DNA of 55,299 bases. It comes from a virus. Below, piece by piece: positions 2,877-51,984 of this stretch. The notes under the pieces are model-generated. The model made no database searches. It saw only the letters and a list, made by a program, of their open reading frames with translations, and had not been told where the DNA came from. The number at the start of each line of letters is the position of its first letter. Positions within the stretch are counted from its first letter, which is position 1. Both the position numbers and the translations under genes were made by a program. The stretch lies in the IMG/VR virus record IMGVR_UViG_3300025138_010082, positions 1 to 55,299 of that record. The stretch is one strand, 5' to 3'.

Positions 2877-4309
2877 TATCCTAAAGTTGAATCTAAAGCG
2901 TTTTTTAGTTCTTTTATAAATGGTTCATAGTTTTGAACACCATAATCATCTATTAATACTTGTGCTACCCCTTTAGCAAATTCTCTGTATGACATGTTAG
3001 GGTCAATAGACATAATAGCTGTGTTAATTAATTTAGCTAATTTAGGGTTAGTTGCTTTATTAAAAGCATCATTACCCATCATTGATTTTAGTCTATAATC
3101 AAAATTATCATTTTCACTTAATTTTGCTATTTCTTTTTGAATTAATTTTCTAAACATACCTCTTGTACGATCATCTGCGGACATACCTCTAGTTCCACCT
3201 GGTGTGTTACCTGGTTTTCCGTTAGGACCATACCCACAAGAACCTTCATTTACTTTAAACTGTCGTGATAATTTTTCCCAAGAATAATTTTGATCAACCC
3301 AACCTTGTAATCTTTCTTCATCAAAATCTTTTTTAAATTTACCCGCTTTATTAAGAGCTATTAACATATCTAATTTCTTAGTAGTACGCTCATTCCATTC
3401 TTTATTTCCAATTTCTTTTTCTGCTTTTCTACTTACGTCTATAGCATTCCATTTGTCTTCTGATTCATTCATCATTTTTTCTAGTGATTCTCCAAAATTT
3501 GATGATTGAGTACCACCTTGAGGTTTAATTAAATCACCAGCATAAGCCATAAGATGTTTTATTTTTCCAAATACAGGTGTACCTTTAAGTTCTCCAGTTT
3601 CAATGTCAATTACTCTATATTTAGCTCTTCCGGGTTTGTCTTGGTAAGTTGGGGTTATTTTTTCTAATTCAAATCTATATCCATTACTGTGTCTAGATGT
3701 AAGTTCTTTAGGCCATTCACCCATTTCTTCATTTAATGATTCATCAACTGCTTGATAGTATCCTTCTTTTGAGTATAAATCCTCGTAGTAGAAATGCATA
3801 GTCATTCCACTTTTACCAATTGTTGGGAAATTAACTCTAACACCATCATACTCAGTTTTTAATACTTTTCCTTTATGACCTTTGTATCTAACTTCATCTC
3901 CTACGGAAATTTTAACTGAAATAATGTTTCCATCACGCTCAATTTCTATTTCATCTTCATCACCTCCTTCGCCTTCAGAAGAGTATTCATTCATATCATA
4001 ATCATCTAATTTACTTTGCATGTCAGCTAATTTGGCTTCTGCTTTGTTAAGTAAATCACCATACATATCAGCTATGGGACCGCCCTCTGGCTCAGCTTCT
4101 TGTTCCATATCAATGTATATTTGTTTAATTTCATCTTTTAAATCAGCTATTTCACCTCTAAGATACATGGCTTCATTACCATCTATTCTGTTTGCTTTTC
4201 TTTTAGCTTCTTTATCCGCTTTCATTTGAGATGCTCTTGCTCTCATCATAACTGGATCATTCATGTCCATTTCTTCTAAAGGAACTAAATTTATTAATGA
4301 TAACTTCAT
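2876..4309 (-). CDS. Large multi-segment phage protein, probably virion-associated
   Basis: A 477-residue protein of unknown function, largest of the 4839-1034 group. Visible segments are an N-terminal MKLSLINLVPLEEM peptide, a charged coiled coil (residues ~20-105), a small beta domain around GDEVRYKGHKGKVLKTEYDG resembling an SH3-like fold, two further mixed domains, a glycine/proline-rich linker near residue 365, and a C-terminal helical domain starting MFRKLIQKEIAKLSE. The mosaic of separable modules and repeated LI..E peptides suggests a structural or scaffold-type protein that may be processed by a prohead protease. That is inference. Confidence 0.55.
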   Translation of the reverse strand: MKLSLINLVPLEEMDMNDPVMMRARASQMKADKEAKRKANRIDGNEAMYLRGEIADLKDEIKQIYIDMEQEAEPEGGPIADMYGDLLNKAEAKLADMQSKLDDYDMNEYSSEGEGGDEDEIEIERDGNIISVKISVGDEVRYKGHKGKVLKTEYDGVRVNFPTIGKSGMTMHFYYEDLYSKEGYYQAVDESLNEEMGEWPKELTSRHSNGYRFELEKITPTYQDKPGRAKYRVIDIETGELKGTPVFGKIKHLMAYAGDLIKPQGGTQSSNFGESLEKMMNESEDKWNAIDVSRKAEKEIGNKEWNERTTKKLDMLIALNKAGKFKKDFDEERLQGWVDQNYSWEKLSRQFKVNEGSCGYGPNGKPGNTPGGTRGMSADDRTRGMFRKLIQKEIAKLSENDNFDYRLKSMMGNDAFNKATNPKLAKLINTAIMSIDPNMSYREFAKGVAQVLIDDYGVQNYEPFIKELKNALDSTLG

Positions 4310-4956: not shown

Positions 4957-5382
4957 TTACTTGATTGAAACTGATTTTGGTTTGCTTTCAGGTTGAAGGG
5001 GGATAAAAAGTTTTAATAACCCATCCTTCATTGAAGCCTCAATTTTTGGCAATTCAAATCGTCTAGCGATTTTCCATCCTAAATTAAAACTACGTTTTGC
5101 AATACCTGAATGATGAATGTGACGATTTTCATCGTTTTTATTATCTTTTTTAGTATATGATACTAGTAAAACATCATCTTCGACTTTAATATCGATTTGT
5201 TTTTTAGTTAAGCCAGTGCAGGCTATGTCAAAATACAAACCATCAGGGTCTTCGTAGACGTCTAAGGGGTGATTTAAAATTCTATTTGTTGGTGTTTGAA
5301 ATTGTTCTTCTGCTTGGAAGAAATTTTTGACTAGTATGTCAAAAGGTGAAAATTGTTTGTTTTCTAAAAATAATGTTCCCAT
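4957..5382 (-). CDS. hsp20: Hsp20-family small heat shock protein
   Basis: A 141-residue alpha-crystallin/Hsp20 protein, an ATP-independent holdase for unfolding proteins. The core runs from about residue 40 (NHPLDVYEDPDGLYFDIACTG) through the beta-strand region VEDDVLLVSYTKKD to RRFELPKIEASMKDGLLKLF, the usual A-x-x-x-D-G-L-L signature near the end. It finishes in a short tail ending in KSVSIK, in place of the usual IxI motif. Hsp20 genes are common in T4-like marine phages, where they are thought to aid virion assembly. A terminator follows. The 85-base leader contains a small hairpin at 5426-5446. Confidence 0.9.
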   Translation of the reverse strand: MGTLFLENKQFSPFDILVKNFFQAEEQFQTPTNRILNHPLDVYEDPDGLYFDIACTGLTKKQIDIKVEDDVLLVSYTKKDNKNDENRHIHHSGIAKRSFNLGWKIARRFELPKIEASMKDGLLKLFIPLQPESKPKSVSIK

Positions 5383-34219: not shown

Positions 34220-34460
34220 TTATTTGTTCTTTATTAAATAAGCTAGATCCATCATGATATTCATTTAAAACATCTAATCTGTCTCTTGATTCTGTTAGTT
34301 TGTCTAGTGCTTTGCTTGCTTCTTTTAAAAAATGTTCTGTTGTGTGTTCCCCTATAGCTACTGCTTTAGTAAAACACATGTCTAATGTTAACAGTGCTTC
34401 ATTAATTCTTGCTTCACATTCACTTTTAAGTGCGTTGTATAGTCTTTCTTGATGGTTCAT
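34212..34460 (-). CDS. Hypothetical helical protein
   Basis: An 82-residue, all-helical charged protein starting MNHQERLYNALKSECEARIN. No domain recognised. It overlaps the clamp-loader small subunit gene by 35 bases, with no better start inside the frame. Confidence 0.5.
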   Translation of the reverse strand: MNHQERLYNALKSECEARINEALLTLDMCFTKAVAIGEHTTEHFLKEASKALDKLTESRDRLDVLNEYHDGSSLFNKEQING

Positions 34461-34848
34461 TTTTATAATTTTTTATTATTGATTTTATTGTTTTTTTATC
34501 TAATATATTTAAATAATCGTATGCTTCTCTTATACTAACTTTAAAATGTATAGCCAAATATTCTGCTTTTTCTTTATCTTTTTTACTTTTTTCTCCCTTA
34601 ATCCACTTGTAAAATTTAAATTTAGTTGGTAAAAGGTTAAAGTATAAGTTGAATACCTCTTTTTGAGACAACACTTGGTTTAAACCTGTGTAATTTTGAA
34701 CCATATTAACTATGTTAAGATAATTTGGATTAAAACTCAAAGTCTTATTAATTATAAAAACATTAAATGACTTTTTCTCTTCATCATTAAAATCCTCCCA
34801 ACGTCGTTGTTTAGTATGTAAATTTTTAACGTGTTCAAATGGGTTCAT
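34426..34848 (-). CDS. gp62: Clamp loader small subunit (T4 gp62-like)
   Basis: A 140-residue protein that joins gp44 ATPase to load the sliding clamp. It resembles T4 gp62 in segments: FIINKTLSFNPNYLNIVNMV (T4 has ALSQFPECMP), FNLLPTKFKFYKWIKGE (T4 VPRGKRYGKWAK), and AIHFKVSIREAYDYLNIL (T4 AKRYQVNTNDAINYKSIL). Gene order gp45-gp44-gp62 is that of T4, with small genes inserted. T4 gp62 is 187 residues; this version is shorter at both ends. Confidence 0.75.
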   Translation of the reverse strand: MNPFEHVKNLHTKQRRWEDFNDEEKKSFNVFIINKTLSFNPNYLNIVNMVQNYTGLNQVLSQKEVFNLYFNLLPTKFKFYKWIKGEKSKKDKEKAEYLAIHFKVSIREAYDYLNILDKKTIKSIIKNYKNEPSRKTIQRT

Positions 34849-35069
34849 TAGTCATTTTTAGGTAAAAATCCCTCATTAATATGACCACATTCTACACAAG
34901 CAAAAGCTTGAATTGGTATCATAGTCTCTTGTCCTGTAGGTGATAGTAAAGCTGATAGTTTTCTCATTTTTAATATTTGGGTAAAAACATCATGCCCGCA
35001 CTTATCACAAGTGATTTCAGTTGTTTGACTAAAATCTATGTTCATTTGTTGTTGTTGTGGATTATTCAT
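34848..35069 (-). CDS. Small zinc-ribbon protein
   Basis: A 73-residue protein with ITCDKCGHDVF and FACVECGHINEGF, two C-x2-C-G-H knuckles that together form a zinc ribbon. Phage proteins of this type exist without a defined role; nucleic acid binding is likely. It ends one base into the gp62 start, so both are probably co-translated. Confidence 0.7.
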   Translation of the reverse strand: MNNPQQQQMNIDFSQTTEITCDKCGHDVFTQILKMRKLSALLSPTGQETMIPIQAFACVECGHINEGFLPKND

Positions 35070-35115: not shown

Positions 35116-35277
35116 TTAATGGTAAAAACCAAGATCTGAAGCTTCATGTTTGTTATTTTCTACTTCAATTTTATCGTAATGTATAAAATTTTTAATCATT
35201 TGGGGTAAGGATTCAAGAAGTTCTATTTGGTTTTCTTCTAATTCTTTAACTTTAACTATTAATTCTTCATTACTCAT
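35116..35277 (-). CDS. Hypothetical small helical protein
   Basis: I prefer the ATG at 35277 (53 residues, starting MSNEELIVKVKELEENQIEL), which overlaps the upstream stop in ATGAGTAA, over a longer frame that would overlap bS21 by 44 bases. One coiled-coil-like helix then FIHYDKIEVENN. No function seen. Confidence 0.5.
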   Translation of the reverse strand: MSNEELIVKVKELEENQIELLESLPQMIKNFIHYDKIEVENNKHEASDLGFYH

Positions 35278-35458
35278 TATCTTGTTGTTTTTTGAGTTTT
35301 CTAATTGCTTCATCTTTTTTTACTTTTCTTTTTGCTGAAGGTTTAGTGTAATTTTTACGTTCTCTAATTTCTTTTAAAACTTGTGTGTCTTTAAATTTAC
35401 TTTTAAAATGTTTTAGGGCTTTACTTATATTCCCCTTTATTACTGGTATTTTTAACAT
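35270..35458 (-). CDS. rpsU: Ribosomal protein bS21
   Basis: A 62-residue protein with the bS21 pattern: IPVIKGNISKALKHFKSKF, TQVLKEIRER, NYTKPSAKRKVKKDEAIRKL. bS21 sits on the 30S platform near the 3' end of 16S rRNA. Length equals bacterial bS21 (~60-70). In Bacteroidota it helps hide the anti-Shine-Dalgarno sequence. The 22 bases before its ATG contain no Shine-Dalgarno-like run. Its gene overlaps the gp44 stop by seven bases, so expression is tied to the clamp loader. The phage copy may replace host bS21 and shift translation; that role is inferred. Confidence 0.88.
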   Translation of the reverse strand: MLKIPVIKGNISKALKHFKSKFKDTQVLKEIRERKNYTKPSAKRKVKKDEAIRKLKKQQDNE

Positions 35459-36360
35459 AAATTTATTAGTTTATTTAACATTGCAGCTACACAAATTTCT
35501 TTTTCTAGCACAAATGTATATTCATATTGGTACTTAGCAATAATAAGTATTGCTTCACCTTCTTTATCACCAAACAATGTAGAGGATTTATCGTAAATAT
35601 ACTTAAATAAATCGTCAAATTCTCGTGAACCTGAATCTGCTAATATTTGTCTAATTTCTGACAATTTAGCTTTTCTAATTAATGCGTCAACTACCAAACC
35701 ACCTAATTGTGTGTTTTTTAGTGATGCATCGTCAATTTTAATTTGACCATCAACGATAGAACCCTGTATTGTATTAACTATTTTTCTAATGTCAGGGTAA
35801 TGTGTGTCTACAACAGAAAGTACATTATCCGTGTTGTTTTTAGTGTTGATTTTTAATTCCTCTTTTACTGATATTTCACAAATTAAATCTATTACTTCAT
35901 CTTTTGAAGGTGGTGTAATTTCAAAGGTTTGACATCTACTCTGTAGTGGTGAAATTATACGTTCAAGATAATTACAAGTAAATATAAAACGAGTTGTTTT
36001 ACTACAAGATTCAATTGTGTTACGTAATGTTGCTTGTGCTTGTGGTGTAATGTAATCTGCTTCATCTAATATAACAATTTTAACATCATTAAAACTCATA
36101 CTTGAAGCAAATGGTATAATTTTATCTCTAATTGTGTCTATACCCCTTTCATCACTAGCATTAATATACAACAAATCACAATTTAAATTTTTAGCAATTA
36201 ATTTAGCTAACGTTGTTTTACCTGTGCCTGCAACCCCATGGAATAGTAGGTTTTGAATTGATCCTTGTTTAAGATAATCTGCTATCTTATTTTTAATCGT
36301 TTCATTACCTACATACTCCTCTAAAGTTTGTGGTCTATATTTTTCTACCCAAAGTTCCAT
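35452..36360 (-). CDS. gp44: Clamp loader large subunit (T4 gp44-like AAA+ ATPase)
   Basis: A 302-residue RFC-type ATPase. LWVEKYRPQTLEEYVGNE is the family start; FHGVAGTGKTTLAKLIAK is Walker A (residues 41-58); ILDEADYI Walker B; RFIFTCNYLERIISPLQSRC holds sensor 1 and the SRC arginine finger. With gp62 it opens and loads the gp45 clamp. The order gp45-...-gp44-gp62 matches T4, interrupted by chaperonin genes. Confidence 0.92.
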   Translation of the reverse strand: MELWVEKYRPQTLEEYVGNETIKNKIADYLKQGSIQNLLFHGVAGTGKTTLAKLIAKNLNCDLLYINASDERGIDTIRDKIIPFASSMSFNDVKIVILDEADYITPQAQATLRNTIESCSKTTRFIFTCNYLERIISPLQSRCQTFEITPPSKDEVIDLICEISVKEELKINTKNNTDNVLSVVDTHYPDIRKIVNTIQGSIVDGQIKIDDASLKNTQLGGLVVDALIRKAKLSEIRQILADSGSREFDDLFKYIYDKSSTLFGDKEGEAILIIAKYQYEYTFVLEKEICVAAMLNKLINLC

Positions 36361-36564
36361 TTATTTTTTAAAAAATTGTTTACAAAATGATATACAAAAC
36401 CAAAGAAGTGCTATTGGCCAAATTACAACCGCTATTAATCTTTGGTCCCACCCCCAATCTACATTAGGGGTGAGATAATTTTTTTCTTTAAGCTTAGTCA
36501 TTACTATATCCATTATGAATATAAAAGCAAAACCTACAAATATATAATTTAATATCATATCCAT
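36361..36564 (-). CDS. Small membrane protein
   Basis: A 67-residue protein with two hydrophobic spans (ILNYIFVGFAFIFIMDIVM and LIAVVIWPIALLWFCISF) around a polar loop containing NVDWGWDQR. It lies between groEL and gp44 with single-base contacts on both sides. Function unknown. Confidence 0.6.
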   Translation of the reverse strand: MDMILNYIFVGFAFIFIMDIVMTKLKEKNYLTPNVDWGWDQRLIAVVIWPIALLWFCISFCKQFFKK

Positions 36565-38195
36565 TACATTCCTCCCATCATTGCCATAGGATCCGCTTCA
36601 TCTTTACTCTTAGGATCATCGACTATTGTACATTCTGTTATTAACATTGTTCCTGCAACTGACACTGCATTTTCTAATGCTGTTCTTGTTACTTTTGTTG
36701 GATCTATAATACCTTCTTTAATCATATCCACATATTCTTTAGTTTTAATATTATAACCTAAAAAATTACCTTCTACATTAGATAAAATACTATGATACTT
36801 GTCAATACCTGCGTTTTTAAGAATCTGAATGAATGGCTTTTCAATAGCATTCATTAATATTTCTGACCCAATTGCTTCATCACCTTCACAAATTAGTTGA
36901 TTAGCTGTTTGTAATCTGTTTTTAGCTTCTAACAAAGCAACTCCACCACCTGCAACAATACCTTCATCTAAGGCAGCTCTTGTAGCATGTAATGCATCGT
37001 CAACTCTATCTTTCTTTTCTTTCATTTCAGTTTCAGTAAATCCACCTACATTAATTACAGCAACACCACCAGCCATTTTAGCTAATCTTTGTTGTAATTG
37101 TTCTACTGCGTAATTACTGTCTGCTCTTTCGATTTGATCTTTAACTTCTTCTAAACGAGCTGTAATTGCTTCTTCAGTACCACTACCGTCTACAATAGTT
37201 GTTCTTTCTTTTTCAATTGTAATTCCCCTTGAAGTACCTAATTGGTCAAAGGTAATTTTATCTAAACGATGTCCTTTTTGTTTAGAAATAACTGTACCGC
37301 CTGTTAAGACAGCAATATCTTCCAAAATGTGGGTTCTTCTTTCTCCAAAGTCAGGTGCCTTAACAGCACAACATTTTAAGATACCTCTCATTTTATTTAC
37401 AATCATAGCTGCTAATGCTTCACCATCAATATCTTCTGCAATAATAAGCATTGATTTGTTTTGTTGTGAAACTCCTTCTAAAATTGGTAATAATTCTTTT
37501 ACTTGACTAATTCTACCATCATAAATTAAAATATACGGATCATCTAACTGTGCTTGCATTGTTGAGTTGTCAGTTACAAAATATGGTGATTTATAACCTC
37601 TGTCAAATTGCATACCTTCAACCGTTTCTAATGTTGTTTCATATGATTTACTTTCTTCAACTGTAACAACACCATCTAAACCTACTTTATCAATTGCAGC
37701 AGCAATTAAATTACCTACTTCTTCATCATTATTAGCTGAAATAGTAGCAACTTGTTTAATTTGTTCTTCTGATGCAATGTCAGTAGACATTTCTTTTAAA
37801 TGTTTAACAATTTCTTTAGCTGTTTTATCCATACCTCTCTTAATAGCAACTGCATTGTGTTTTTGAGATAAATTTGTATGGTTCATACCTTCTGCAATTA
37901 ATTCTTTAGCTAGTAATGTGGATGTTGTTGTACCATCACCTGCTGTGTCACCTGTTTGAATAGCTGCTTGTTTTACCATTTGTGCACCTAAATTTTCAAC
38001 TGGATCCTTTAATGTAACTGTTTTTGCAACTGTAACACCATCTTTAGTTGATTGGGGTAAATTGCCACCTTGTTGTGCAATTATTACGTTACGCCCATTT
38101 GGTCCTAAGGTTACAACAACTGCATTTGCTAATTGTTCAACACCACTTAATAATTTTGCTCTTGAATCAGAGCCTGTTTCGATAATTTTACTCAT
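36564..38195 (-). CDS. groEL: GroEL chaperonin
   Basis: A 543-residue full-length chaperonin. [16 protein letters not shown] (nucleotide P-loop), [20 protein letters not shown] (catalytic Asp region), [20 protein letters not shown], and the end [10 protein letters not shown] with the GGM tail are all as in bacterial GroEL. It folds proteins in the cytoplasm with GroES. The ATG overlaps the groES stop in ATGAGTAA. Having both parts of the chaperonin is uncommon in phages; T4 itself encodes only the co-chaperonin gp31. Probable use: folding the major capsid protein. Confidence 0.97.
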
Positions 38196-38502
38196 TGTCT
38201 TCTTTTTGTTTAATAATTCCTAATACATCACTTTCTCCTGCTATGAGATATGTTTCATTTTCTATTTCTACTTTTTGGGCACCAAATTTAGGTACCATAA
38301 CTGTAGCTCCTACTTCTAATCTGTTTGGTATTAAAGTACCATCAGTACTAATTCTACCAGGGCCTACAGCTAATACTGTTCCCATTTCTGGTCTTTCACC
38401 ACCTGCATCAGGTATAATGATATTTCCATACGTTTGTTCTCCTTCTTCTTGTGGGAGAATTACAATTTTGTCACCTAAAGGTATAATTGGACTTTCTGTC
38501 AT
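38188..38502 (-). CDS. groES: GroES co-chaperonin
   Basis: A 104-residue co-chaperonin: IPLGDKIVILPQEEGEQTYG, NIIIPDAGGERPEMGTVLAV (mobile loop and start of the core), VGATVMVPKFGA, YLIAGESDVLGII. Slightly longer than the bacterial average. It caps GroEL encoded by the next gene; eight-base overlap suggests balanced synthesis. Confidence 0.93.
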   Translation of the reverse strand: MTESPIIPLGDKIVILPQEEGEQTYGNIIIPDAGGERPEMGTVLAVGPGRISTDGTLIPNRLEVGATVMVPKFGAQKVEIENETYLIAGESDVLGIIKQKEDNE

Positions 38503-39692: not shown

Positions 39693-42341
39693 TTAAAACT
39701 TAAAAAATTGTTGAACATACGTATTTAGTGTTAAATTTCCCCAACCGAGATCTTGATAAAATGACTCTAATTTGTTCTTCAGTATCGTATCAAAAGATCT
39801 TGGTATATCCACATATTCTTCAATAAATTTACGAATAGGTAATGGCAAATCAAAATCTAAAAACCCCATAGTGTCAATTTTATATGGATTGTCTCTTAAA
39901 TAAACCCATTTAATTTTATCACCTTCTACAATTTGAGTGTGTTTTTTATCTAAATTTTTAAACTTAAGTAAGTCATTGTATCTTACAGCTGCTTTAACAC
40001 CTACAGGTGCTTTGTTTTCAAATTCACTAAATATACAATCTGCGCTAGCAGGGAGACCTGTGTATTTTTTTACATTTTTAACTCCTGTTGGTTTTGATAT
40101 TTTAACAAAGTCAATGTCTTTAAGTGATTCCTTAAATGCTAATATTTCTTTATCAATTTCTCCTCTTGTAGCACCAAATAGGATTTTATGTAATATTTCT
40201 TCAAAAAATGTTCTAAATAATGGTGGAAAATTAGACTTTTTAAAGTCAAGACCTTTTACGTCAATTTCATCACAAGGTACACCTTCTTTCTTTGTAATAT
40301 ACTGTGCATATCTACGTTTACCTGAAAAGAATGCAGAACGTATTGTACATTCCGTTTTCATTTCTAATCTGTGTTTGTCTACCGGGACATTGAATGCATC
40401 TAATGCAAGGTAATTATAATATTCGTTGATTTTCTTTTCATATTCTAATGACATTGCTTCAAGCTTGTCTGCTTTAACTGTTTCATCTAAATCATCAAAA
40501 TCCGGATTTAACTTACGTAATAATGGTTCAGCATTAACATAACATGAATCTGTGTCTTCATACACTACAACACTACTACATTCTTCATATCGTTGGCGAG
40601 GTGTGGTTCTAATTTCATAAACGTCTTTACCTGTTTCTAATGTTTCTTCAGCTGTCTTATTTATAAATGTACCTGAATCTTGAATGATTCTTTGTCCTGT
40701 AAGTGTAATACCTTCACTTAATAATACAGACCCATATCTAAACGTAGGTAATGCAGTAGCACCATACAATGAATTAAGTAAAATTTTCATTGTATATTGA
40801 CGTAAATGGTTTAAATCACCTTCTTCTTTATTACCTGCTTTGTATGCTTTTTTCATAGCATTTTTATATTCAACTCTTTCGTCAAACCATTTGCTAAGTA
40901 CAACTGACAATGTAGACGGTTTGTCTGTTCTAAACATTACACCATTAGCTGTAATTGCTAGATTATTTTGTTTGATTAATGCTAATATTTCACCAACAGA
41001 CAATATCTTTTTTCTTCGTTGTAAGTTTTCAACTTCAAATTCATCCTTAGGATCCATTTTTTTAAGATCATTAAGAGCTAAACGATTATTTCTATCATCT
41101 AATGTTACAAGTCGTCCTACTAATGTTTCTCTACCAATGTTAAGAGACATAATAATTGAGGGATACAGTGAAGTTAAATCTTCATCGAACATGTAATTAT
41201 AAATGCCCGTTTTGGGGCAAAATAAATAACCCCCAGCGTACGATAATTTATTTCCATCTGCATCTTCCTTTATAATTGGGTTAGGATCTTTATTAGGTGG
41301 GATAATTTCTTCACCTAACAAGTAAGCTGATATGGCTCCATCTTGTGTTCTAGATGATTGATAAACTTCCTCATACACACATTTTCCTTTGTGTGATATG
41401 TTTTTGGTTAAATCTAAATATTTAAACTTTTCATCTAATTTTTTAAGTATTAAAACATCAACAAAATTATAATCTATAAACTTTTGTTTGTCTTCAGCGA
41501 ATAATCTGTCTAATGATCCGTCATATTCAATTTTCTTTTGGTTAACATACTTTTCACCTAAAGAATCTAATTTCATTGATGGTTCTTGTTGAAACGAATA
41601 TTTTTTATGTAACCGCATATAATCGAGTGACGTTACACCTGCAATTCTAATTGGTTGATCTGGATACCATCTTTTATCTCGTTCTTCAACTATTCTAATT
41701 GGTGACAAACGTTTTGCTGTACGTTCACCTAAACGATTTTTTATTCTGTAATAAATGTAGGGAATGTCAAAATAATCACTGTTATAACCTACTAAAATGT
41801 CAGGTGCTATGGCTTCTAATCTAGTTAAAAATACTTCAATTAAATCATTTTCTCTACTTACAGGAATAATTTCTCTACCATCCTGAATGCCTGCTTTAAT
41901 TTCACCTGTTTTGTCTAATATAACAATTGCCCATTGGTCTGTTTGTTTGTCCCACCAAGCAATTGATGTAATAGGTTTGGGTGCTAACGCAATGTATTCA
42001 GGTGTTAATGCACCACCCATTTCGATTTCAATGTCGAAAAATACTTCTCTATGAGTTTTAGAAGTTTCATCATTAGTACCATACTTGTCAATTAGAAACT
42101 TTGTGTGTATGTTTCCTCTAGTATGGTCTGTGTAATGTAAACCTTCAGTTTCTCTATTCCAATTGTAAATTTTCTTTAATGGTTCGTCTTTAAGACCCCA
42201 ATTAGTAGCGTGATATTGATCACATTCTTGATAACCATAATTTCGAAATTCTTCAACAGAATAACCTTCATCTGTCCATAAATGAACATCATAAACGTTC
42301 CAAACGTCAGGTTTTTTTACTACATAACAATTTTTATACAT
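39693..42341 (-). CDS. gp43: Family B DNA polymerase (T4 gp43-like)
   Basis: An 882-residue replicative polymerase with 3'-5' exonuclease. Exo I: FFDIEIEMGG (Asp103, Glu105). Exo II: LVGYNSDYFDIPYIYYR. Polymerase motif A: DEDLTSLYPSIIMSLNIG. Motif B region: RQYTMKILLNSLYGAT. Motif C: YEDTDSCYVN. KKRYA-like: FFSGKRRYAQYI. The last residues TYVQQFFKF form the clamp-binding peptide. T4 gp43 is 898 residues, so this is full length. It has its own promoter at 42346-42375 of the TTG-N20-TATATTG type. Confidence 0.97.
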   Translation of the reverse strand: MYKNCYVVKKPDVWNVYDVHLWTDEGYSVEEFRNYGYQECDQYHATNWGLKDEPLKKIYNWNRETEGLHYTDHTRGNIHTKFLIDKYGTNDETSKTHREVFFDIEIEMGGALTPEYIALAPKPITSIAWWDKQTDQWAIVILDKTGEIKAGIQDGREIIPVSRENDLIEVFLTRLEAIAPDILVGYNSDYFDIPYIYYRIKNRLGERTAKRLSPIRIVEERDKRWYPDQPIRIAGVTSLDYMRLHKKYSFQQEPSMKLDSLGEKYVNQKKIEYDGSLDRLFAEDKQKFIDYNFVDVLILKKLDEKFKYLDLTKNISHKGKCVYEEVYQSSRTQDGAISAYLLGEEIIPPNKDPNPIIKEDADGNKLSYAGGYLFCPKTGIYNYMFDEDLTSLYPSIIMSLNIGRETLVGRLVTLDDRNNRLALNDLKKMDPKDEFEVENLQRRKKILSVGEILALIKQNNLAITANGVMFRTDKPSTLSVVLSKWFDERVEYKNAMKKAYKAGNKEEGDLNHLRQYTMKILLNSLYGATALPTFRYGSVLLSEGITLTGQRIIQDSGTFINKTAEETLETGKDVYEIRTTPRQRYEECSSVVVYEDTDSCYVNAEPLLRKLNPDFDDLDETVKADKLEAMSLEYEKKINEYYNYLALDAFNVPVDKHRLEMKTECTIRSAFFSGKRRYAQYITKKEGVPCDEIDVKGLDFKKSNFPPLFRTFFEEILHKILFGATRGEIDKEILAFKESLKDIDFVKISKPTGVKNVKKYTGLPASADCIFSEFENKAPVGVKAAVRYNDLLKFKNLDKKHTQIVEGDKIKWVYLRDNPYKIDTMGFLDFDLPLPIRKFIEEYVDIPRSFDTILKNKLESFYQDLGWGNLTLNTYVQQFFKF

Positions 42342-43971: not shown

Positions 43972-44661
43972 TTATATATTATGTCCTCCGTTATTAATCT
44001 TCAGACTGTCAAAAAATTCTTTTCTTGATAAATTGTTGTTTTCTCTAAATACACCTGATGCTTTTGTTGTAACCATAGCAGCACCTTGGTGTTTTACACC
44101 TCTACAAGACACACAATTGTGAGTGCCTACAATAGTAACAATTACTCCTTTATTACCTTCGGTGATTTGTGATACAGCATTGTGAATTGCTGATGTTAAT
44201 TGTTCTTGAATGGCTCCTCTTCTACTAAATAGTTCTACAATTCTATTCAACTTAGATAAACCAATTACTTTACCTTCTTCTCCAGCAATATAACCAATAT
44301 GAACCACCCCACCAATTGTTTGGTGGTGGTGTGAACACATTGAAGTTAGTGGAATGTTTCTTTCGATTACAATTCCATCGTAACCATCGGAAGGGAAGGA
44401 AGTAACAGGTGACATTGCAGTGTATCTACCAGCCCACAAATCATTAACATAGGCCTTAGCTACACGTCTCGGTGTGTCAGATGAATTTGGATCATTTTTC
44501 CAATCACATTTTAATGCATCTAAAAAATTACCAAAGGCTACAGTGGCCTCTTCGATTATTTTTTCTTTTTCTTTATCTTTTAAGGGAAAACCAGGTGCTA
44601 CACCATTTGCAAAACCTTGTTGTACTACTTCTAAATTAAATGTTTTTTTCTCTTCTGCCAT
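43972..44661 (-). CDS. folE: GTP cyclohydrolase I
   Basis: A 229-residue FolE1 enzyme converting GTP to dihydroneopterin triphosphate, the first step of folate and 7-deazaguanine synthesis. IERNIPLTSMCSHHHQTIGG holds the zinc Cys109 and the catalytic histidines; HNCVSCRGVKHQGAAMVTT supplies the second zinc cysteine region. LSKLNRIVELFSRR and QEQLTSAI are as in the family. It lies in one operon with queD, queE and queC, so its product probably feeds queuosine-type base synthesis rather than folate. Confidence 0.93.
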   Translation of the reverse strand: MAEEKKTFNLEVVQQGFANGVAPGFPLKDKEKEKIIEEATVAFGNFLDALKCDWKNDPNSSDTPRRVAKAYVNDLWAGRYTAMSPVTSFPSDGYDGIVIERNIPLTSMCSHHHQTIGGVVHIGYIAGEEGKVIGLSKLNRIVELFSRRGAIQEQLTSAIHNAVSQITEGNKGVIVTIVGTHNCVSCRGVKHQGAAMVTTKASGVFRENNNLSRKEFFDSLKINNGGHNI

Positions 44662-45170
44662 TATAATACGTGTATTGTGTCTAAATTTCTACTATATCCT
44701 TTGGGGCCATCCATACCATATCCTATATACCATGGATTAACTCCCTCTGGTTGTTTATATATAAAAAAGTGGTTTGGGAAATCCAAATTTTCTTTATAAA
44801 CTGCTGAAACTGTTTCAATTTGTTTTGCTCCTAATTCTTTATAATGGTTTTTTAAAGCATTTAATGTGTTTCCACTGTCTAAAATATCATCTATAAGAAA
44901 TACTGTTTTGTTTTCTATATTTGTTTCAATATCATAATGAATTTCGAGTGATTTTTGTTCTTGACCACTATATGAACTACATTTAATAAAATCAACTTCA
45001 ATAGGATAATTTATGTGTTTTACTAAATCGCTAGAAAACATAAATCCACCTTTCATAACACAAACAAACACAATTCCACCTCCAATTTCATGACATTTGT
45101 CTGTTAATGTTGTTCCCAGATCTTTTACTTGATTTTCTAATTGTATTTTGGATATTAATTTTTTACTCAT
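44661..45170 (-). CDS. hpt: Hypoxanthine-guanine phosphoribosyltransferase
   Basis: A 169-residue purine phosphoribosyltransferase joining hypoxanthine or guanine to PRPP. VCVMKGGFMFSSDLVKHI, KCSSYSGQEQ (flexible loop) and VFLIDDILDSGNTLNALK (PRPP motif) match Hpt; the end ...VNPWYIGYGMD is typical. It lies between folE and queE, so it may salvage guanine from host DNA into GMP/GTP for the deazaguanine pathway. An unusual possibility is a modified-base salvage role. Confidence 0.9.
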   Translation of the reverse strand: MSKKLISKIQLENQVKDLGTTLTDKCHEIGGGIVFVCVMKGGFMFSSDLVKHINYPIEVDFIKCSSYSGQEQKSLEIHYDIETNIENKTVFLIDDILDSGNTLNALKNHYKELGAKQIETVSAVYKENLDFPNHFFIYKQPEGVNPWYIGYGMDGPKGYSRNLDTIHVL

Positions 45171-45300
45171 TTTCTTCTATAAACTTTTTTAATTTTTCAA
45201 TTAATGTTAATACTTCATCAGGTTCCATAGTTACAGCACAGCAAATATTTACATTTTCTGTAATTTCCTCTAATACTTCTAATGCTTCTTCTTTAGACAT
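45163..45300 (-). CDS. Small hypothetical protein (45 aa)
   Basis: Translated by hand: 45 residues starting MSKEEALEVLEEITENVNIC, with a CC pair and an acidic helix. The ATG follows the queE stop as TAATG and its stop overlaps the hpt ATG as ATGAGTAA. That double overlap makes a real gene likely. Function unknown. Confidence 0.6.
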   Translation of the reverse strand: MSKEEALEVLEEITENVNICCAVTMEPDEVLTLIEKLKKFIEENE

Positions 45301-46076
45301 TATACTTCACGTTGGTCTTCAAAGGCTATAATGTGGGGTCTCCAAGTCATTCTATAACCATTATCTCTAACCCAATCAAATACTAAAGGGTAGGATTTAA
45401 ATAATCCTTCTCTTGAATCTCCTGCTGGCATAAACCATACTTTTTCAGGTTTAACTTCTAATATTGCAATACATTCCATAATCTCAGCCAGCGCCTCCTG
45501 ATCTTTACCATCCCACACAGGTTTAATATGATAATCTGAGTGATATGCAATTGATTGCTTTATAGCATCATAATTAAGTCTTTTTCTATTGTGAATGTCT
45601 ACGAATTTTTGGTCAACCACTTTCCCAGCTGGAGTAACAGTCCCCACAACAGGCACGGAATTACTAAACTTAGGGCTAATAGACAACAAGTTAATAGGAT
45701 AATCGGTTTCAACAAAATGAGATCCTTCAGTTTCGATAGTGATAAAAATATTTTTTTCATGTGCAAAGTGTGTTAATTCATTAACTAATTTAGGATGCAT
45801 TGTTGGAGAACCCCCAGTTAACATCATTTCTTTAATGTGAGGATTTTTATCATACATTTTAATAATATCATTAAAATTAAATGTCCCTTTTTCTGGGTGT
45901 ATACTAGTATACCAACTATCACACCAACCACCTTCACCAAAGTAACATCTGTGAGTACATCCGGTTGTTCTAATTACTACTGTGGGGTAACCTGCTCTAG
46001 ATCCTTCTGATTGTACTGCGGTGTAAATTTCTACAATGGGTAGATTTTTATTATAATCTTCTATTCTTTTACGCAT
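45300..46076 (-). CDS. queE: 7-carboxy-7-deazaguanine synthase (QueE), variant cluster motif
   Basis: A 258-residue radical SAM enzyme that contracts 6-carboxytetrahydropterin to 7-carboxy-7-deazaguanine. IVEIYTAVQSEGSRAGYPTV is the family start; RTTGCTHRC begins the Fe-S site and MMLTGGSPTMHP plus TIETEGSHFVE follow as in QueE. The cluster motif is C40-x3-C44-x7-C52 instead of the usual C-x3-C-x2-C, five residues inserted before the third cysteine (YFGEGGWCDS). Overlaps queC by eight bases. Activity is likely but should be tested given the insertion. Confidence 0.85.
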   Translation of the reverse strand: MRKRIEDYNKNLPIVEIYTAVQSEGSRAGYPTVVIRTTGCTHRCYFGEGGWCDSWYTSIHPEKGTFNFNDIIKMYDKNPHIKEMMLTGGSPTMHPKLVNELTHFAHEKNIFITIETEGSHFVETDYPINLLSISPKFSNSVPVVGTVTPAGKVVDQKFVDIHNRKRLNYDAIKQSIAYHSDYHIKPVWDGKDQEALAEIMECIAILEVKPEKVWFMPAGDSREGLFKSYPLVFDWVRDNGYRMTWRPHIIAFEDQREV

Positions 46077-46929
46077 GTTTTGCTAATAATTCTGTTACAT
46101 GTTGTTTTGCTGTTTCCCATCCATCAATATATTCAACAGGGTCTTTTCTGTCTAATTTTAGAAATGCTTCTATTCTTTCTACAGATGAAGCTGATTTGTA
46201 ATCTGATCTTCCTTCTGCGTCTGGTTTGTATGAGGTGTTTGTTCTTTTATAAACTTCATCAAAATCTAAGTCTAATTTTTTACAACATCTTTCACCATCT
46301 TTTAAAATGTCAAATTTATCCCCATCTAAATAAGGTGTATAATATGTTACTTGTTCAGCATCCCAATTACCTTGTTTAAATGCTTCATAATCTGCATCTC
46401 TAAATTCTTGTCTACAGTCAGGGTAAATTGCATGGTCACCTGCATGAATACCCATTGCTATTTTTACTTCACATTCTTTTTGTTGAGCAACAGACAATGC
46501 TACTGCTTGGATAATAGATGAAAACATTTTATTTCTGTTAGGTACAACAGTGTCTTTCATATTATCTTCTTCATAATGACCTTCTGGAACATCATCACCT
46601 CCTTTTACTAAATTTGAATCTAAAAGAGAAACTAATCCTTGTAATGTAATTCTTTGATATTTTACTGGATAGCCAGCTTTATCAAGATATTCAATTAATT
46701 CTGCTGCTCTTTCTAATTCTACATTGTGTTTTTGACCATAATCAAAACTTAACGCTGTTACTTTATAATCGTTTGCTAACAGGTGTAATAATACTGTACT
46801 ACTATCCATTCCACCTGATAATGATAATACTGCTTGTTTTTTCATATTGTTATTTTTATACTCATACCAATTTGGGTTTGGTAATTCTGAGTAATGATCC
46901 CATAATTCTTTTTCTACTATTTCCGACAT
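46069..46929 (-). CDS. queC: 7-cyano-7-deazaguanine synthase (QueC) lacking the zinc cysteines
   Basis: A 286-residue PP-loop ATPase of the QueC family, which in standard form converts carboxy- to cyano-deazaguanine via an amide. LSLSGGMDSSTVLLHLLA (PP-loop, 35-52), SFDYGQKHNVELERA and VVPNRNKMFSSII are as in QueC. An extra ~28 residues precede the usual start. The C-terminal zinc site (C-x8-C-x2-C-x2-C) is replaced: residues ~229-256 read NTSYKPDAEGRSDYKSAS then SVERIEAF. The flanking residues still align (T...Y, VERIEAF), but serine, aspartate and other residues stand where cysteines are expected. The final product could be the amide rather than the nitrile; inference. Confidence 0.85.
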   Translation of the reverse strand: MSEIVEKELWDHYSELPNPNWYEYKNNNMKKQAVLSLSGGMDSSTVLLHLLANDYKVTALSFDYGQKHNVELERAAELIEYLDKAGYPVKYQRITLQGLVSLLDSNLVKGGDDVPEGHYEEDNMKDTVVPNRNKMFSSIIQAVALSVAQQKECEVKIAMGIHAGDHAIYPDCRQEFRDADYEAFKQGNWDAEQVTYYTPYLDGDKFDILKDGERCCKKLDLDFDEVYKRTNTSYKPDAEGRSDYKSASSVERIEAFLKLDRKDPVEYIDGWETAKQHVTELLAKHA

Positions 46930-47385
46930 TTATTTATTTAAATGTTGTTGTTTAGTTTCATGTTCCCAAATTCCATCTACTGTGTGTTCATGCCAATGTA
47001 TTCTACCTCCTAAAATAGCGTCTTTAATATTTTTCTGGTGGCCATTTAATTGTGAATTTCCACTTTTTACTTCAATAAAATGAACTGCACACTTTTTCTT
47101 GCTTCCTCTGTCTGAAAACGCTATATAATCAATTGGTTTTCCAAAAAATTGTACGTCTTTAGGGTTTACGGGGAAGCTTTTCATAAAGGGAACATAATGT
47201 TCAATTGTTTTTCCAAAACTTACTGCTCTTGATCTTGAATAAGCATCTTCTCGGATAGCTTTTTCTTCTTTAACTTTCCATTTTGCTAACATGGATTCTG
47301 CTTTTCTTTCTGCAATTTTATCGTGTGTAAAATAAACATATGCTGCGAAAGCTAAAGCACATATTGCGATTGTAATTGATATCAT
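46930..47385 (-). CDS. Holliday-junction-resolvase-like nuclease with membrane anchor
   Basis: A 151-residue protein. Residues ~1-20 form a hydrophobic segment (ISITIAICALAFAAYVYF). The rest resembles the Endonuc_Holl family, related to archaeal resolvase: GKTIEHYVPFM, NPKDVQFFGKPIDYIAFSD, HFIEVKSGNSQL (E-x-K catalytic motif), and Q-x-x-I...AIL later. It might resolve recombination intermediates or act near the membrane. It lies inside the deazaguanine operon, so a link to handling modified or unmodified DNA is possible but unproven. Confidence 0.65.
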   Translation of the reverse strand: MISITIAICALAFAAYVYFTHDKIAERKAESMLAKWKVKEEKAIREDAYSRSRAVSFGKTIEHYVPFMKSFPVNPKDVQFFGKPIDYIAFSDRGSKKKCAVHFIEVKSGNSQLNGHQKNIKDAILGGRIHWHEHTVDGIWEHETKQQHLNK

Positions 47386-48192
47386 TTAGTATAATTGAGT
47401 GTTACCATCCTGTATAAATTGTTTAAAACGGATGAGGTTGTGGTTAATGTTATATAATTTTTCTTGATCTAATGGTATTAGTCCTAATTTATCTATTTTA
47501 GTTGAAGATTTAGTAAATAAACCTACACTATTGTATTTTACTCCTTCTAACCCATGAATTATAGGGTTTGATGTGTCTACTGATTCAATAAAGGGAAAGT
47601 CAGCATAATAAGCAAATTCTTGTGGTAAAGCACACCCTAATAAATGTACTCTATCACTTTTGCTTATTAATCCTGATTTATACATTCTTGATATAGTCAT
47701 TATACGACCCATCATTTTACCAACCAAAGGATTTGGGTGAGGAAATTCATCACAATACCAATCAGCACCATAACTAAATGCTATTTTTTGGTATCCTTGC
47801 ATTTTTAAAACATTATAACATTCATAAGCTTCATGGTAACTTTGTGCTTGAACAACTGCTACTTTAGTTACTCCTTCTGGTAAATTTATTGATTGCCATT
47901 TTTTAGCATTAACTAATGTTGCTGTTTGATTTTGCCACACATCAGGTACTATAAATTCATCTGGTTCTAAACGTTCAATCCAATGTAGTAATCTTTTTGT
48001 GTCATATGCTTTACCTAATTCGTGAAGTGAATTGTCCATTATAATATAACTGCCTGCTTCTTTAGCATAAAGAAAATGATCTCTATACATTTCATTTTGA
48101 TCTAATAGATGAGGTAAACAGTACTCATAATCATTAATTTCAAAGCTCTTAGGGAGCATATTTACTGGTAACTCGTGTGATACTTTAAACAT
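47386..48192 (-). CDS. dpdA: DpdA-like 7-deazaguanine DNA transglycosylase
   Basis: A TGT-family protein; I start it at 48192 (268 residues), overlapping the queD stop in ATGTTTAA. IIMDNSLHELG (Asp53), EFIVPDVWQNQ (Asp84), VAVVQAQS, RVHLLGCALPQE (the TGT HLLG segment) and ESVDTSNPI (Asp206, nucleophile-type position) follow the order of the tRNA-guanine transglycosylase fold. Phage DpdA enzymes of this kind swap guanine in DNA for a deazaguanine base. Its place between queD and queC argues for DNA, not tRNA, as the target. It is much shorter than host TGT (~375 residues). Confidence 0.8.
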   Translation of the reverse strand: MFKVSHELPVNMLPKSFEINDYEYCLPHLLDQNEMYRDHFLYAKEAGSYIIMDNSLHELGKAYDTKRLLHWIERLEPDEFIVPDVWQNQTATLVNAKKWQSINLPEGVTKVAVVQAQSYHEAYECYNVLKMQGYQKIAFSYGADWYCDEFPHPNPLVGKMMGRIMTISRMYKSGLISKSDRVHLLGCALPQEFAYYADFPFIESVDTSNPIIHGLEGVKYNSVGLFTKSSTKIDKLGLIPLDQEKLYNINHNLIRFKQFIQDGNTQLY

Positions 48193-48652
48193 ATTTTTCT
48201 GAATAAATTGCTGTGTTTTTACCATGTTCCATAAATTCTACTGATTTAACTTGAACACGTTCATTAGTTTCATCTTTTACAAAATTATTTAATTTATGAA
48301 ATATAAATTCTGCAAATTTTTCTGCTCCTGTTGCTTTAACTGTTCTTAATTGAATTGTACCCTCTAAATCTAATGTTTGAAATGCGGGTAATTCAGGGTC
48401 ATCTATGGCTACTATAACTGTATGGTCAAACATCCAATCCATCCAATCTTTCGGCTGCATACCATCGATTAGTGTTTTTGCCCTCTTCATGCCACCAAAA
48501 TCCCAAACCCAATTGCGATCATCTAGTGTTCCTTCGAATGTTACTTTAAATGAAATACCATATCCATGTAAGAATCGGCAGTGTGTTGTGGTTGCTTTCC
48601 ATTGTCTAAAACAACAGGTAAAACCATCAAATATTTTTGTACTTTGAAACAT
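48185..48652 (-). CDS. queD: 6-carboxytetrahydropterin synthase (QueD), divergent metal site
   Basis: A 155-residue QueD/PTPS-family enzyme turning dihydroneopterin triphosphate into 6-carboxytetrahydropterin. THCRFLHGYGISFKV corresponds to the C...LHGHN block; VWDFGGMKRA to D-F-x-x-x-K; MFDHTVIV to the L-D-H block; VEFMEHGKNTAIY to the last acid. In E. coli QueD zinc is held by three histidines, two in LHGH. Here the second reads LHGY (Tyr31), and the early histidine position appears to be Cys14. I recall this divergent type from other phages, so it is likely functional. Confidence 0.8.
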   Translation of the reverse strand: MFQSTKIFDGFTCCFRQWKATTTHCRFLHGYGISFKVTFEGTLDDRNWVWDFGGMKRAKTLIDGMQPKDWMDWMFDHTVIVAIDDPELPAFQTLDLEGTIQLRTVKATGAEKFAEFIFHKLNNFVKDETNERVQVKSVEFMEHGKNTAIYSEKYV

Positions 48653-49082: not shown

Positions 49083-49281
49083 TTTTGATTTCTTCATATT
49101 CTATATCTTTTATTTCATTACATAACCACAAGAAATCTTGTGCTTTAAACATTGTGTCACAGTGGTAATATTGTTTTAATACTTTTATTCCATCTTCCAC
49201 ATCTAAATTTATTCTTTTCTCTTTAAATTTTCTTTTTACTTGGAATAATTTCCCCTGTATATTTATAATTTCTTTACCCAT
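49075..49281 (-). CDS. Hypothetical small protein
   Basis: 68 residues from the ATG at 49281, which overlaps the nrdA stop in ATGGGTAA; a GTG one codon earlier is less likely. Sequence starts MGKEIINIQGKLFQVKRKFK and has DTMFKAQDFLWLCNEIKDI. No function recognised; probably coupled to nrdA. Confidence 0.5.
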   Translation of the reverse strand: MGKEIINIQGKLFQVKRKFKEKRINLDVEDGIKVLKQYYHCDTMFKAQDFLWLCNEIKDIEYEEIKNE

Positions 49282-50986
49282 CACAACTTACACATTCTGA
49301 TGTTCTAGAACCTAAATCTCCTTTAATTACTGAATCTGTTCTTAAATAATATAAGGTTTTAATTCCTAATTTCCAAGCTTCCATATGAACTTGATTAATC
49401 CATTTTGGAGAATCAGTAGGTGCGAATGCTAAATTAAGTGATTGGGTTTGATCAATGTATTTTTGTCTGATTGCTGCCTGTCTAACTAATTCTAATTGAT
49501 TTGTTTCAGCAAATGTTAAAAATACTTCTTTATCTTCTTCAGGTAAAATATCATTTGATAAATTTTGAACTGAACCTGCATCTGCTAATATTTGATCCCA
49601 AACTTTATTTGTATTATAACCTTTTTCTGTTAGTAGACTTTCTAACTCTGGATTTTTAACAATAAATGTTCCTTTAGCTCCATTAAAGGTATAAACATTT
49701 GCAGGTTGGGGTTCAATTCCTGCTGAACATCCCCCAATTCTTGAATTTGAAACTGTGGGAGCAATAGCTAAAACATGAGTATTTCTCATACCTGTTCCTT
49801 TACACCATAATGGTTCACCATATTCTTCAGCTAATTGTCTACTTGCTGCTTCAGCTTCATTTCTAATTTTAGACATTATTGTGTGAGTCCAAGCTGTAGA
49901 AGCAATACAGTTAAATGGTAAATTTTTCTTTTGTAAGAAAGTATGCCAACCCATTACACCTAAACCTAATGCTCTACCCTTTTTAGCATGTTTATGGGTA
50001 CGTTTCATTGCTTCTTTTCCGTTAGTTTTATCAATGAATTCCTGCATAACACCATCTAAGAAGTATGTAGCAATTTCAACAACATCTGTGTCTTTCCACT
50101 CATCATATTTTGCGAGATTTAACGAAGACAAACAACATATAAACGAGTGCTCTTCATCTGTGTGTAATGTTATTTCTGTACAAATATTTGTCATAGACAC
50201 ATTAAGATTATTCATCATGTAAGCTAAAGGATTGTCTTTATTTACATTGTCTTCAAACATAATGTAAGGTTCTCCTGTTTCCATTCGTGATTTTAGAATG
50301 CTTAACCAAATGTTCATAGCTTTTTCATCTCTGTCACTTAATTTTCTCATAAAGGCATCATCCACAACAGCACATTGATGTAAATTTAAACATTGTCTAT
50401 TTGGGTCTCCTTTTGGCCTTCTAATTTGTAAAAATTCTTCTATGTCGGGGTGGTTAATATTTAAATTAACTGAAGCTGCTCCTCTTCTTACATTACCTTG
50501 ATTAGTAGCAATAATGGTTGAATCATATATTTTACACCAAGGTACTACACCTTCAGATTTACCATTTCCCTTAATTTCAGTTCCTCTTGGTCGTATTCTA
50601 TTAACACTTATACCTACACCACCACCTGATGACGTTAATTTCATTAATTCGGCATTTGTTAATCCAATTCCCCTAACTGAGTCAGGAGTATCAACCCCAA
50701 AACATGAAATTGGTAAACCTCTGTCTGTGCCTGTGTTTGACAATACAGGACTAGCTAAACCAATCCAACCATTCCAAATGTATTTAAAGAATTTTAATTC
50801 TAAGTCTGGACGATTTAATCTCATTGCTACAGAGTGAGCTACTCTTTTATATGCTTTTTTAGGTGTTTCACCTGGTAGGAGATATCCTTTAGAAATTGTA
50901 GACAATGCTACCTCATCCATAAATTCAGGATAGTCTTTTCCTTTTTCCCATTGAGTGTAATCTGCTACTAAACTATTATTATCCAT
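49274..50986 (-). CDS. nrdA: Class I ribonucleotide reductase, large subunit
   Basis: A 570-residue catalytic subunit reducing ribonucleotides to deoxyribonucleotides. LPISCFGVD holds the first redox cysteine (Cys95); MTNICTEITL gives the N-x-C-x-E active site (N267, C269, E271); ICCLSSLNL the second redox cysteine (~285); and ECVSCDG the C-terminal C-x2-C that passes electrons. No ATP-cone domain is present, so it lacks the usual overall allosteric switch, fitting a phage that keeps dNTP supply on. It lies directly after nrdB. Confidence 0.95.
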   Translation of the reverse strand: MDNNSLVADYTQWEKGKDYPEFMDEVALSTISKGYLLPGETPKKAYKRVAHSVAMRLNRPDLELKFFKYIWNGWIGLASPVLSNTGTDRGLPISCFGVDTPDSVRGIGLTNAELMKLTSSGGGVGISVNRIRPRGTEIKGNGKSEGVVPWCKIYDSTIIATNQGNVRRGAASVNLNINHPDIEEFLQIRRPKGDPNRQCLNLHQCAVVDDAFMRKLSDRDEKAMNIWLSILKSRMETGEPYIMFEDNVNKDNPLAYMMNNLNVSMTNICTEITLHTDEEHSFICCLSSLNLAKYDEWKDTDVVEIATYFLDGVMQEFIDKTNGKEAMKRTHKHAKKGRALGLGVMGWHTFLQKKNLPFNCIASTAWTHTIMSKIRNEAEAASRQLAEEYGEPLWCKGTGMRNTHVLAIAPTVSNSRIGGCSAGIEPQPANVYTFNGAKGTFIVKNPELESLLTEKGYNTNKVWDQILADAGSVQNLSNDILPEEDKEVFLTFAETNQLELVRQAAIRQKYIDQTQSLNLAFAPTDSPKWINQVHMEAWKLGIKTLYYLRTDSVIKGDLGSRTSECVSCDG

Positions 50987-50997
50987 TAATTTTTATT

Positions 50998-51984
50998 TTA
51001 AAATATTGATTCTGCATCCCAATCCATTGTTCCTTTACTGTAGTTTGTTACTCTGCTTGCAAAGAAATCTGTGTGTTGTTTTCCTGCTGACAAATGATCG
51101 AACCATTTCATTCTTTCAATAGCTGTTACATCAATACCATTAACTATGGGTCTATAACCTAAATCTCCCATTTTTGTATTTACTCTATGTTTGATAAATG
51201 ATATTAAATCATCTTTACTGCAACCTTCTAAATCTCCTTGTTCATATACCTTTTCAATAAAATCTAATTCTAATTGTAAAGATAATAAAGCAGCTTCATT
51301 AATTGCTGTTTCTAATTCTGGTGTTTTTAATTCTGGTTTTTCTTCTAAAAGTGTTCTAAATAACCAACATCCTGCTTCTGAATGCATTGATTCATCTCTA
51401 ATTGACCATTCAACAATTTGTCCTACTCCTTTTAATTTATTTCTTAATTTAAATGATAATAAGACAGCAAAAGAACTAAATAAATTTACTCCCTCAGTAA
51501 AAGCTGAAAATATAGCTAATGATTTTGCTCTTTCATGCCAATTTACTTCATCACCAAAACTGTCTCTAACTTCAGTTAAAGCTTCAATTTTAGCCATTGT
51601 AGATTCATCTTCTAAAAATTCACTAAAATCATCTAATCCTAACTCTTCATTTAATAAAGAATAAGCTTCAGCGTGAACGGTTTCCATAGCACCAAAAACA
51701 GTTGCCATTGCTATAATTTCTGGTTTTCTAAACCATTTTGTAACTAAACCTGTCCAATAATCATTTACTACTGTTTCAGTTTGTGCAAAACCTTTTAAAA
51801 TAGAACCAATAATGTTTTTTTCTGTTTCTGTTAAGCTTTGTTTCCAATCATTAATATCACTCATCATAGGAACTTCTGTGTGAATCCAATGTGCCTGTTG
51901 TTGTTTTAACCAATAGTCAAATGCTTCTGGATATTCGAATGGTTTATAAACTACTCTTTCTTTTGTGATATCTTTTTCTGCCAT
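50998..51984 (-). CDS. nrdB: Class I ribonucleotide reductase, small (radical) subunit
   Basis: A 328-residue di-iron protein. The metal ligands appear complete: Glu70 (QTETVV), Glu101 and His104 (METVHAEAY), Glu164 (EGVNLF), Glu198 and His201 (ESMHSEAG). Tyr108 aligns with the radical tyrosine of standard class Ia enzymes, so no manganese or tyrosine-less variant is indicated. It forms the holoenzyme with NrdA encoded next. A terminator precedes it (52006-52029). Confidence 0.95.
   Translation of the reverse strand: MAEKDITKERVVYKPFEYPEAFDYWLKQQQAHWIHTEVPMMSDINDWKQSLTETEKNIIGSILKGFAQTETVVNDYWTGLVTKWFRKPEIIAMATVFGAMETVHAEAYSLLNEELGLDDFSEFLEDESTMAKIEALTEVRDSFGDEVNWHERAKSLAIFSAFTEGVNLFSSFAVLLSFKLRNKLKGVGQIVEWSIRDESMHSEAGCWLFRTLLEEKPELKTPELETAINEAALLSLQLELDFIEKVYEQGDLEGCSKDDLISFIKHRVNTKMGDLGYRPIVNGIDVTAIERMKWFDHLSAGKQHTDFFASRVTNYSKGTMDWDAESIF

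Follow-up and report, generated by a model that had tools for sequence, protein, structure and literature searches.

A Shine-Dalgarno-free bS21 gene with arginine at the latch position in the replication operon of a likely Bacteroidia phage

The viral DNA analysed here, hereafter the window (an IMG/VR record taken whole, 55,299 bases, GC 30%, and probably a fragment of a larger genome), carries among its replication genes an open reading frame for ribosomal protein bS21. The locus raises the question of how a bS21 made by a phage would act on the ribosomes of its host, and on their choice of mRNAs.

The bS21 gene and the replication module

The reading frame, translated as MLKIPVIKGNISKALKHFKSKFKDTQVLKEIRERKNYTKPSAKRKVKKDEAIRKLKKQQDNE, was confirmed as a genuine phage-encoded bS21, as it had been annotated at first pass, by Pfam, PHROG and PDB matches that were all to bS21. 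The match to Pfam Ribosomal_S21 (PF01165; 1.3e-14, 54 bits, cut-off 27) was full length, with protein residues 4-55 on model positions 2-54 of 55, and PHROG 21469 ('ribosomal protein S21') was matched at 1.1e-9. The best solved-structure matches were bS21 chains, among them that of F. johnsoniae (PDB 7jil), a protein of the same family whose N-terminal MLxIPV...ALKxFKxKF is conserved in the phage protein. Pairwise dN/dS within the phage family was mostly 0.1-0.5, and the gene is under purifying selection.

The gene stands in a T4-like replication module in the order gp43, gp45, GroES, GroEL, gp44, bS21, short ORF, Zn-ribbon and gp62. The following features were annotated:

34426-34848, minus strand: clamp-loader A subunit, T4 gp62-like (phrog_225, 1e-14)
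34848-35069, minus strand: small Zn-ribbon-like protein, which in relatives comes after bS21 or gp44
35116-35313, minus strand: short ORF 3' of bS21, without a family match
35270-35458, minus strand: phage bS21, 62 aa, in which Arg53 corresponds to F. johnsoniae Tyr54
35452-35458, minus strand: overlap of the bS21 start and the gp44 stop, 7 nt (ATGTTAA), the same in intact family members
35452-36360, minus strand: clamp-loader small subunit, T4 gp44-like (phrog_168, 7.4e-78)
36361-36564, minus strand: small membrane-like ORF in the groEL/gp44 interval
36564-38195, minus strand: phage GroEL
38188-38502, minus strand: phage GroES
38958-39683, minus strand: sliding clamp, T4 gp45-like
39693-42341, minus strand: DNA polymerase B, T4 gp43-like
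49274-51984, minus strand: ribonucleotide reductase alpha and beta

The short ORF was not seen in one relative (L002), where the Zn-ribbon gene lies directly 3' of bS21. In Pfam scans of about 50 proteins of this fragment, bS21 was the only ribosomal protein detected, and a protease able to remove host bS21 was not found. Elsewhere in the window, a FolE-like GTP cyclohydrolase, a radical SAM protein, QueC and a PTPS (QueD-like) protein are encoded at 43972-48652 (minus strand); they form a preQ0-type 7-deazaguanine pathway, common to Flavobacterium phage immuto, and probably serve DNA modification. An HSP20 is encoded at 4957-5382 in addition to the chaperonin pair GroEL/GroES (36564-38502, minus strand), and a big block of glycan genes occupies 9849-31298 (minus strand), with glycosyltransferases, a GDP-mannose dehydratase, a DegT aminotransferase, a sulfotransferase and a Nol-like carbamoyltransferase.

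Phage bS21 genes have likewise been described from large, low-GC phages with predicted Bacteroidota hosts (Chen et al. 2022, PMC9723584). There the gene has terminase, portal, protease and capsid genes as neighbours, is encoded on the strand opposite to them and is expressed late, whereas in the window it lies on the same strand as its neighbours, between the overlapping gp44 and the Zn-ribbon gene, in a replication operon. The bS21 of pelagiphage HTVC008M (PMC6375957) is also phage-encoded, but of alphaproteobacterial origin.

Translation of the gene outside host control

No Shine-Dalgarno (SD) sequence precedes the phage bS21 gene, in agreement with the first-pass annotation; its upstream sequence, CAATGTTAAATAAACTAATAAATTT-ATG, gave a pairing energy with the 16S tail of +1.8 kcal/mol. 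The annotation had further stated that only A and T stand before the ATG, which holds for the last 10 nt and not beyond, where C is found at -11 and G at -21. The missing SD is not readable as an adaptation of bS21 in particular, because essentially every gene of the phage is without one. The core motif was absent from 80 of 81 window genes, the single GGAGG being coding sequence in the 3' end of groEL, and not one of the 71 different phage bS21 genes in the survey had a strong SD; the idea of a gene-specific adaptation was therefore rejected. The strong SD-like site before 36361-36564 was also ruled out as a real SD, as it is that same groEL coding sequence.

The rpsU gene of the host is autoregulated through an extended SD (McNutt 2023, PMC9976891), for which pairing below -13 kcal/mol is the criterion in Bacteroidota; the phage gene lies on the other side of this threshold. 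A very strong SD (-17.6 to -23.5 kcal/mol) was found in all 80 host-type rpsU loci, almost all of them from Flavobacteriaceae, and Tyr54 was encoded in every one. The F. johnsoniae gene has both the extended SD and Tyr54 (PMC9976891), and the phage gene has neither. The SD was absent from rpsU in a few Bacteroidota genomes of the set (L122, L124-L126), which agrees with the published finding that Bacteroidales fall outside the criteria for rpsU autoregulation (PMC9976891). The proposal that phage bS21 is supplied outside the SD feedback of the host was thus supported by the difference between host loci and phage genes, as a general property of phage bS21.

The start codon of bS21 lies within the end of gp44, and the 7-nt overlap is kept in intact family members. 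Judged from this conserved arrangement, translation of bS21 is probably coupled to that of gp44, and termination-reinitiation likely stands in for the SD.

Position 54 in the syntenic family

In F. johnsoniae, Tyr54 of bS21 stacks on A1534 and guides the 16S tail into the pocket formed by bS21, bS18 and bS6 (PMC9976891). The phage protein has Arg53 in its place, spaced from the KPS motif as the Tyr is and lying two residues past the conserved Ala, and its C-terminal helix is without an aromatic residue (none after Tyr37, and no F, W, Y or H past residue 41). A four-sequence alignment placed a gap opposite the Tyr of one relative (L155) and larger alignments placed the Arg there, the helix being non-aromatic either way. 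The window protein therefore differs from the Bacteroidia bS21 that latches the anti-SD and from the Bacteroidetes-phage proteins of Chen et al. (2022, PMC9723584), in which position 54 was aromatic in 61 of 61. An aromatic residue was also found there in most of the SD-less phages surveyed.

A syntenic family was gathered by searches with gp44, gp62 and bS21. Arginine occupied position 54 in six members (the window, L002, L003, L235, L238 and L239), alanine in L237, leucine in L241 and tyrosine in L155 and L316. No bS21 was found at this locus in L234 or L242. In L234, whose gp62 is 95% identical to that of the window, the Zn-ribbon gene follows immediately 3' of gp44 (126-983), a natural empty site for bS21, and the gene is therefore dispensable in that lineage. 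In L242 a different, lysine-rich ORF of 41 aa (3686-3811) fills the gp44/Zn-ribbon interval, where relatives carry bS21. The gp44 of L316 is 93% identical to that of the window, while its bS21, Zn-ribbon protein and gp62 are far more diverged, which points to recombination at the locus, with a breakpoint near the bS21 gene (L316, 7595-9296). L316 is thus a close relative that does have Tyr at position 54.

The C-terminal motif AIRKLKKQQ[DE][DN]E was identical in five of the six arginine members, L238 having AIRRHKKQQDDE, and in the tested pairs the C-terminal part had a dN/dS far below 1; the end of the protein is therefore under selection. A separate phage family (L004, L269, L308, L271 and loci like them) also has Arg at position 54, with a C-terminus like ETIRKNKLF. 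Its use of SD sequences is weak, and its host may therefore differ.

Action on the ribosome and the host

Ribosomes of F. johnsoniae with the Y54A substitution gave, in a protein-yield assay, about wild-type yield from the SD-less tuf mRNA and about 3-fold more from a strong-SD mRNA (PMC9976891), so that the latch is loosened and not tightened. By analogy, the phage bS21 should loosen the latch on the 16S tail. The earlier suggestion that it keeps the anti-SD occluded was not supported at this locus, given the change from Tyr54 to Arg, the helix without aromatic residues and the behaviour of Y54A. Since arginine, too, can stack on adenine, the latch may still hold. The pocket partners bS18 and bS6 remain host-made, which counts against a loosened latch.

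The most likely interpretation is that the phage protein replaces or tops up bS21 during replication, with the grip on the 16S tail loosened or altered. In its specific form, which we hold with moderate confidence, the replication operon delivers an SD-free bS21, outside rpsU feedback, that replaces the host protein and leaves the 16S tail held less tightly. This account builds on the observed gene identity, SD absence, overlap, operon context, residue change and purifying selection, and from them we infer coupling, ribosome incorporation and, from the Y54A analogy, the loosened latch. In the host loop, ribosomes lacking bS21, with their anti-SD free, over-translate rpsU. The phage protein, made without SD-anti-SD pairing and through coupling to gp44 at the 7-nt overlap, would escape this loop. 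It would most likely take the place of host bS21 in the 30S subunit and provide the essential N-terminal function, and its arginine-bearing C-terminal helix would grip the 16S 3' tail less. The hybrid ribosome would still be competent for SD-less phage mRNAs, with a loosened anti-SD latch. Incorporation has a precedent in the pelagiphage bS21, which enters E. coli ribosomes (Mizuno 2019, PMC6375957); those hybrids were about 5% active when assayed in E. coli extract, and replacement can thus harm.

It is also possible, at a lower level of confidence, that the phage bS21 merely tops up a loosely bound, exchangeable protein during the shutdown of host synthesis, residue 54 being free to drift because the latch would be of no consequence in infection. 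The variety of that residue in the family (R, A, L and Y) and the loss of bS21 in L234 fit this explanation, as does the report that exchangeable ribosomal proteins, bS21 included, are found in phages more often than the rest (PMC6375957). The C-terminal motif shared by five of six arginine members and the low C-terminal dN/dS argue against drift.

The first-pass model, in which a bS21 free of host feedback keeps the anti-SD occluded and so favours SD-less phage mRNAs, now appears doubtful. It fits phage mRNAs without SD, the aromatic residue at 54 in most SD-less phages surveyed and in all those of Chen et al. (PMC9723584), and the advantage in SD-less initiation of bS21-replete F. johnsoniae ribosomes over those lacking the bS21 C-terminus (PMC9976891). 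Against it stand the arginine of the window phage and five relatives and the Ala or Leu of two more. Occlusion would also give phage mRNA no advantage over host mRNA, which is SD-less as well.

A stronger version of the loosened latch, which we consider unlikely, is that the phage protein replaces host bS21 and frees the 16S 3' tail, making ribosomes partly SD-responsive and uncoupling the rpsU feedback circuit. Were this true, the SD-less phage genes would continue to be translated, and related phages would be of latching (Tyr) and unlatching (Arg, Ala or Leu) kinds at one locus.

The preferred reading, a replacing bS21 with a loosened grip, concerns ribosomes of a Bacteroidia host. The nearest cultured-phage match of gp43 and gp44 was a Microcystis phage, at only 35-39% identity, and Microcystis phage Mel-JY01 has the gp44-Zn-ribbon-gp62 order of the window family, without bS21. 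SD motifs were however found in 42% of Mel-JY01 genes, as compared to 3% in the window (p=5e-6). The window share equals that of shuffled sequence (3%), and the same was nearly so for its relatives (5% vs 6%) and exactly so for genomes of the phylum Bacteroidota with Tyr at 54 (7% vs 7%). In the window A also peaks upstream of the genes, at -11/-12, as it does in Flavobacterium phage immuto and in Bacteroidota genomes of the Tyr54 type; A enrichment before genes that lack an SD is the pattern expected of a phage with a Bacteroidia host. NrdA and NrdB (72% identity) and GroEL (61%) are closest to those of immuto. From this indirect evidence, the host is likely a member of Bacteroidia.

That the host is instead a Bacteroidota outside class Bacteroidia, or of another phylum, with an arginine in its own bS21 that the phage protein matches, is distinctly improbable: A[IV]R does occur at the latch place in nine Bacteroidota-phylum genomes, and a grouping of non-Tyr phages with Arg-type hosts was not rejected in a smaller bS21 tree (p_AU 0.446), but Arg-type genomes make use of SD motifs (27%, against 10% in shuffled sequence; p=7e-5 for the difference from the window), their sampled stretches have a GC of 38-62%, a 100/100 branch in a larger tree, with long-branch warnings, splits Arg-type hosts from the phage family, the syntenic relatives L155 and L316 bear the Bacteroidia-type Tyr, and ribonucleotide reductase and GroEL are nearest to a Flavobacterium phage. 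Inheritance of Arg54 from such hosts was not favoured on the grounds of SD use, GC, synteny and the larger tree.

No ribosomal protein is found in phages more often than bS21. Bacteroidia ribosomes are the clearest example of mRNA choice under the control of bS21, and the published view is that Bacteroidetes-phage bS21 retains the anti-SD latch; the window protein is without the latch residue. One locus with the latch residue present or absent, together with a close relative that has no bS21 gene, forms a natural allelic series, suited to asking whether a phage bS21 changes how ribosomes initiate or only replenishes them.
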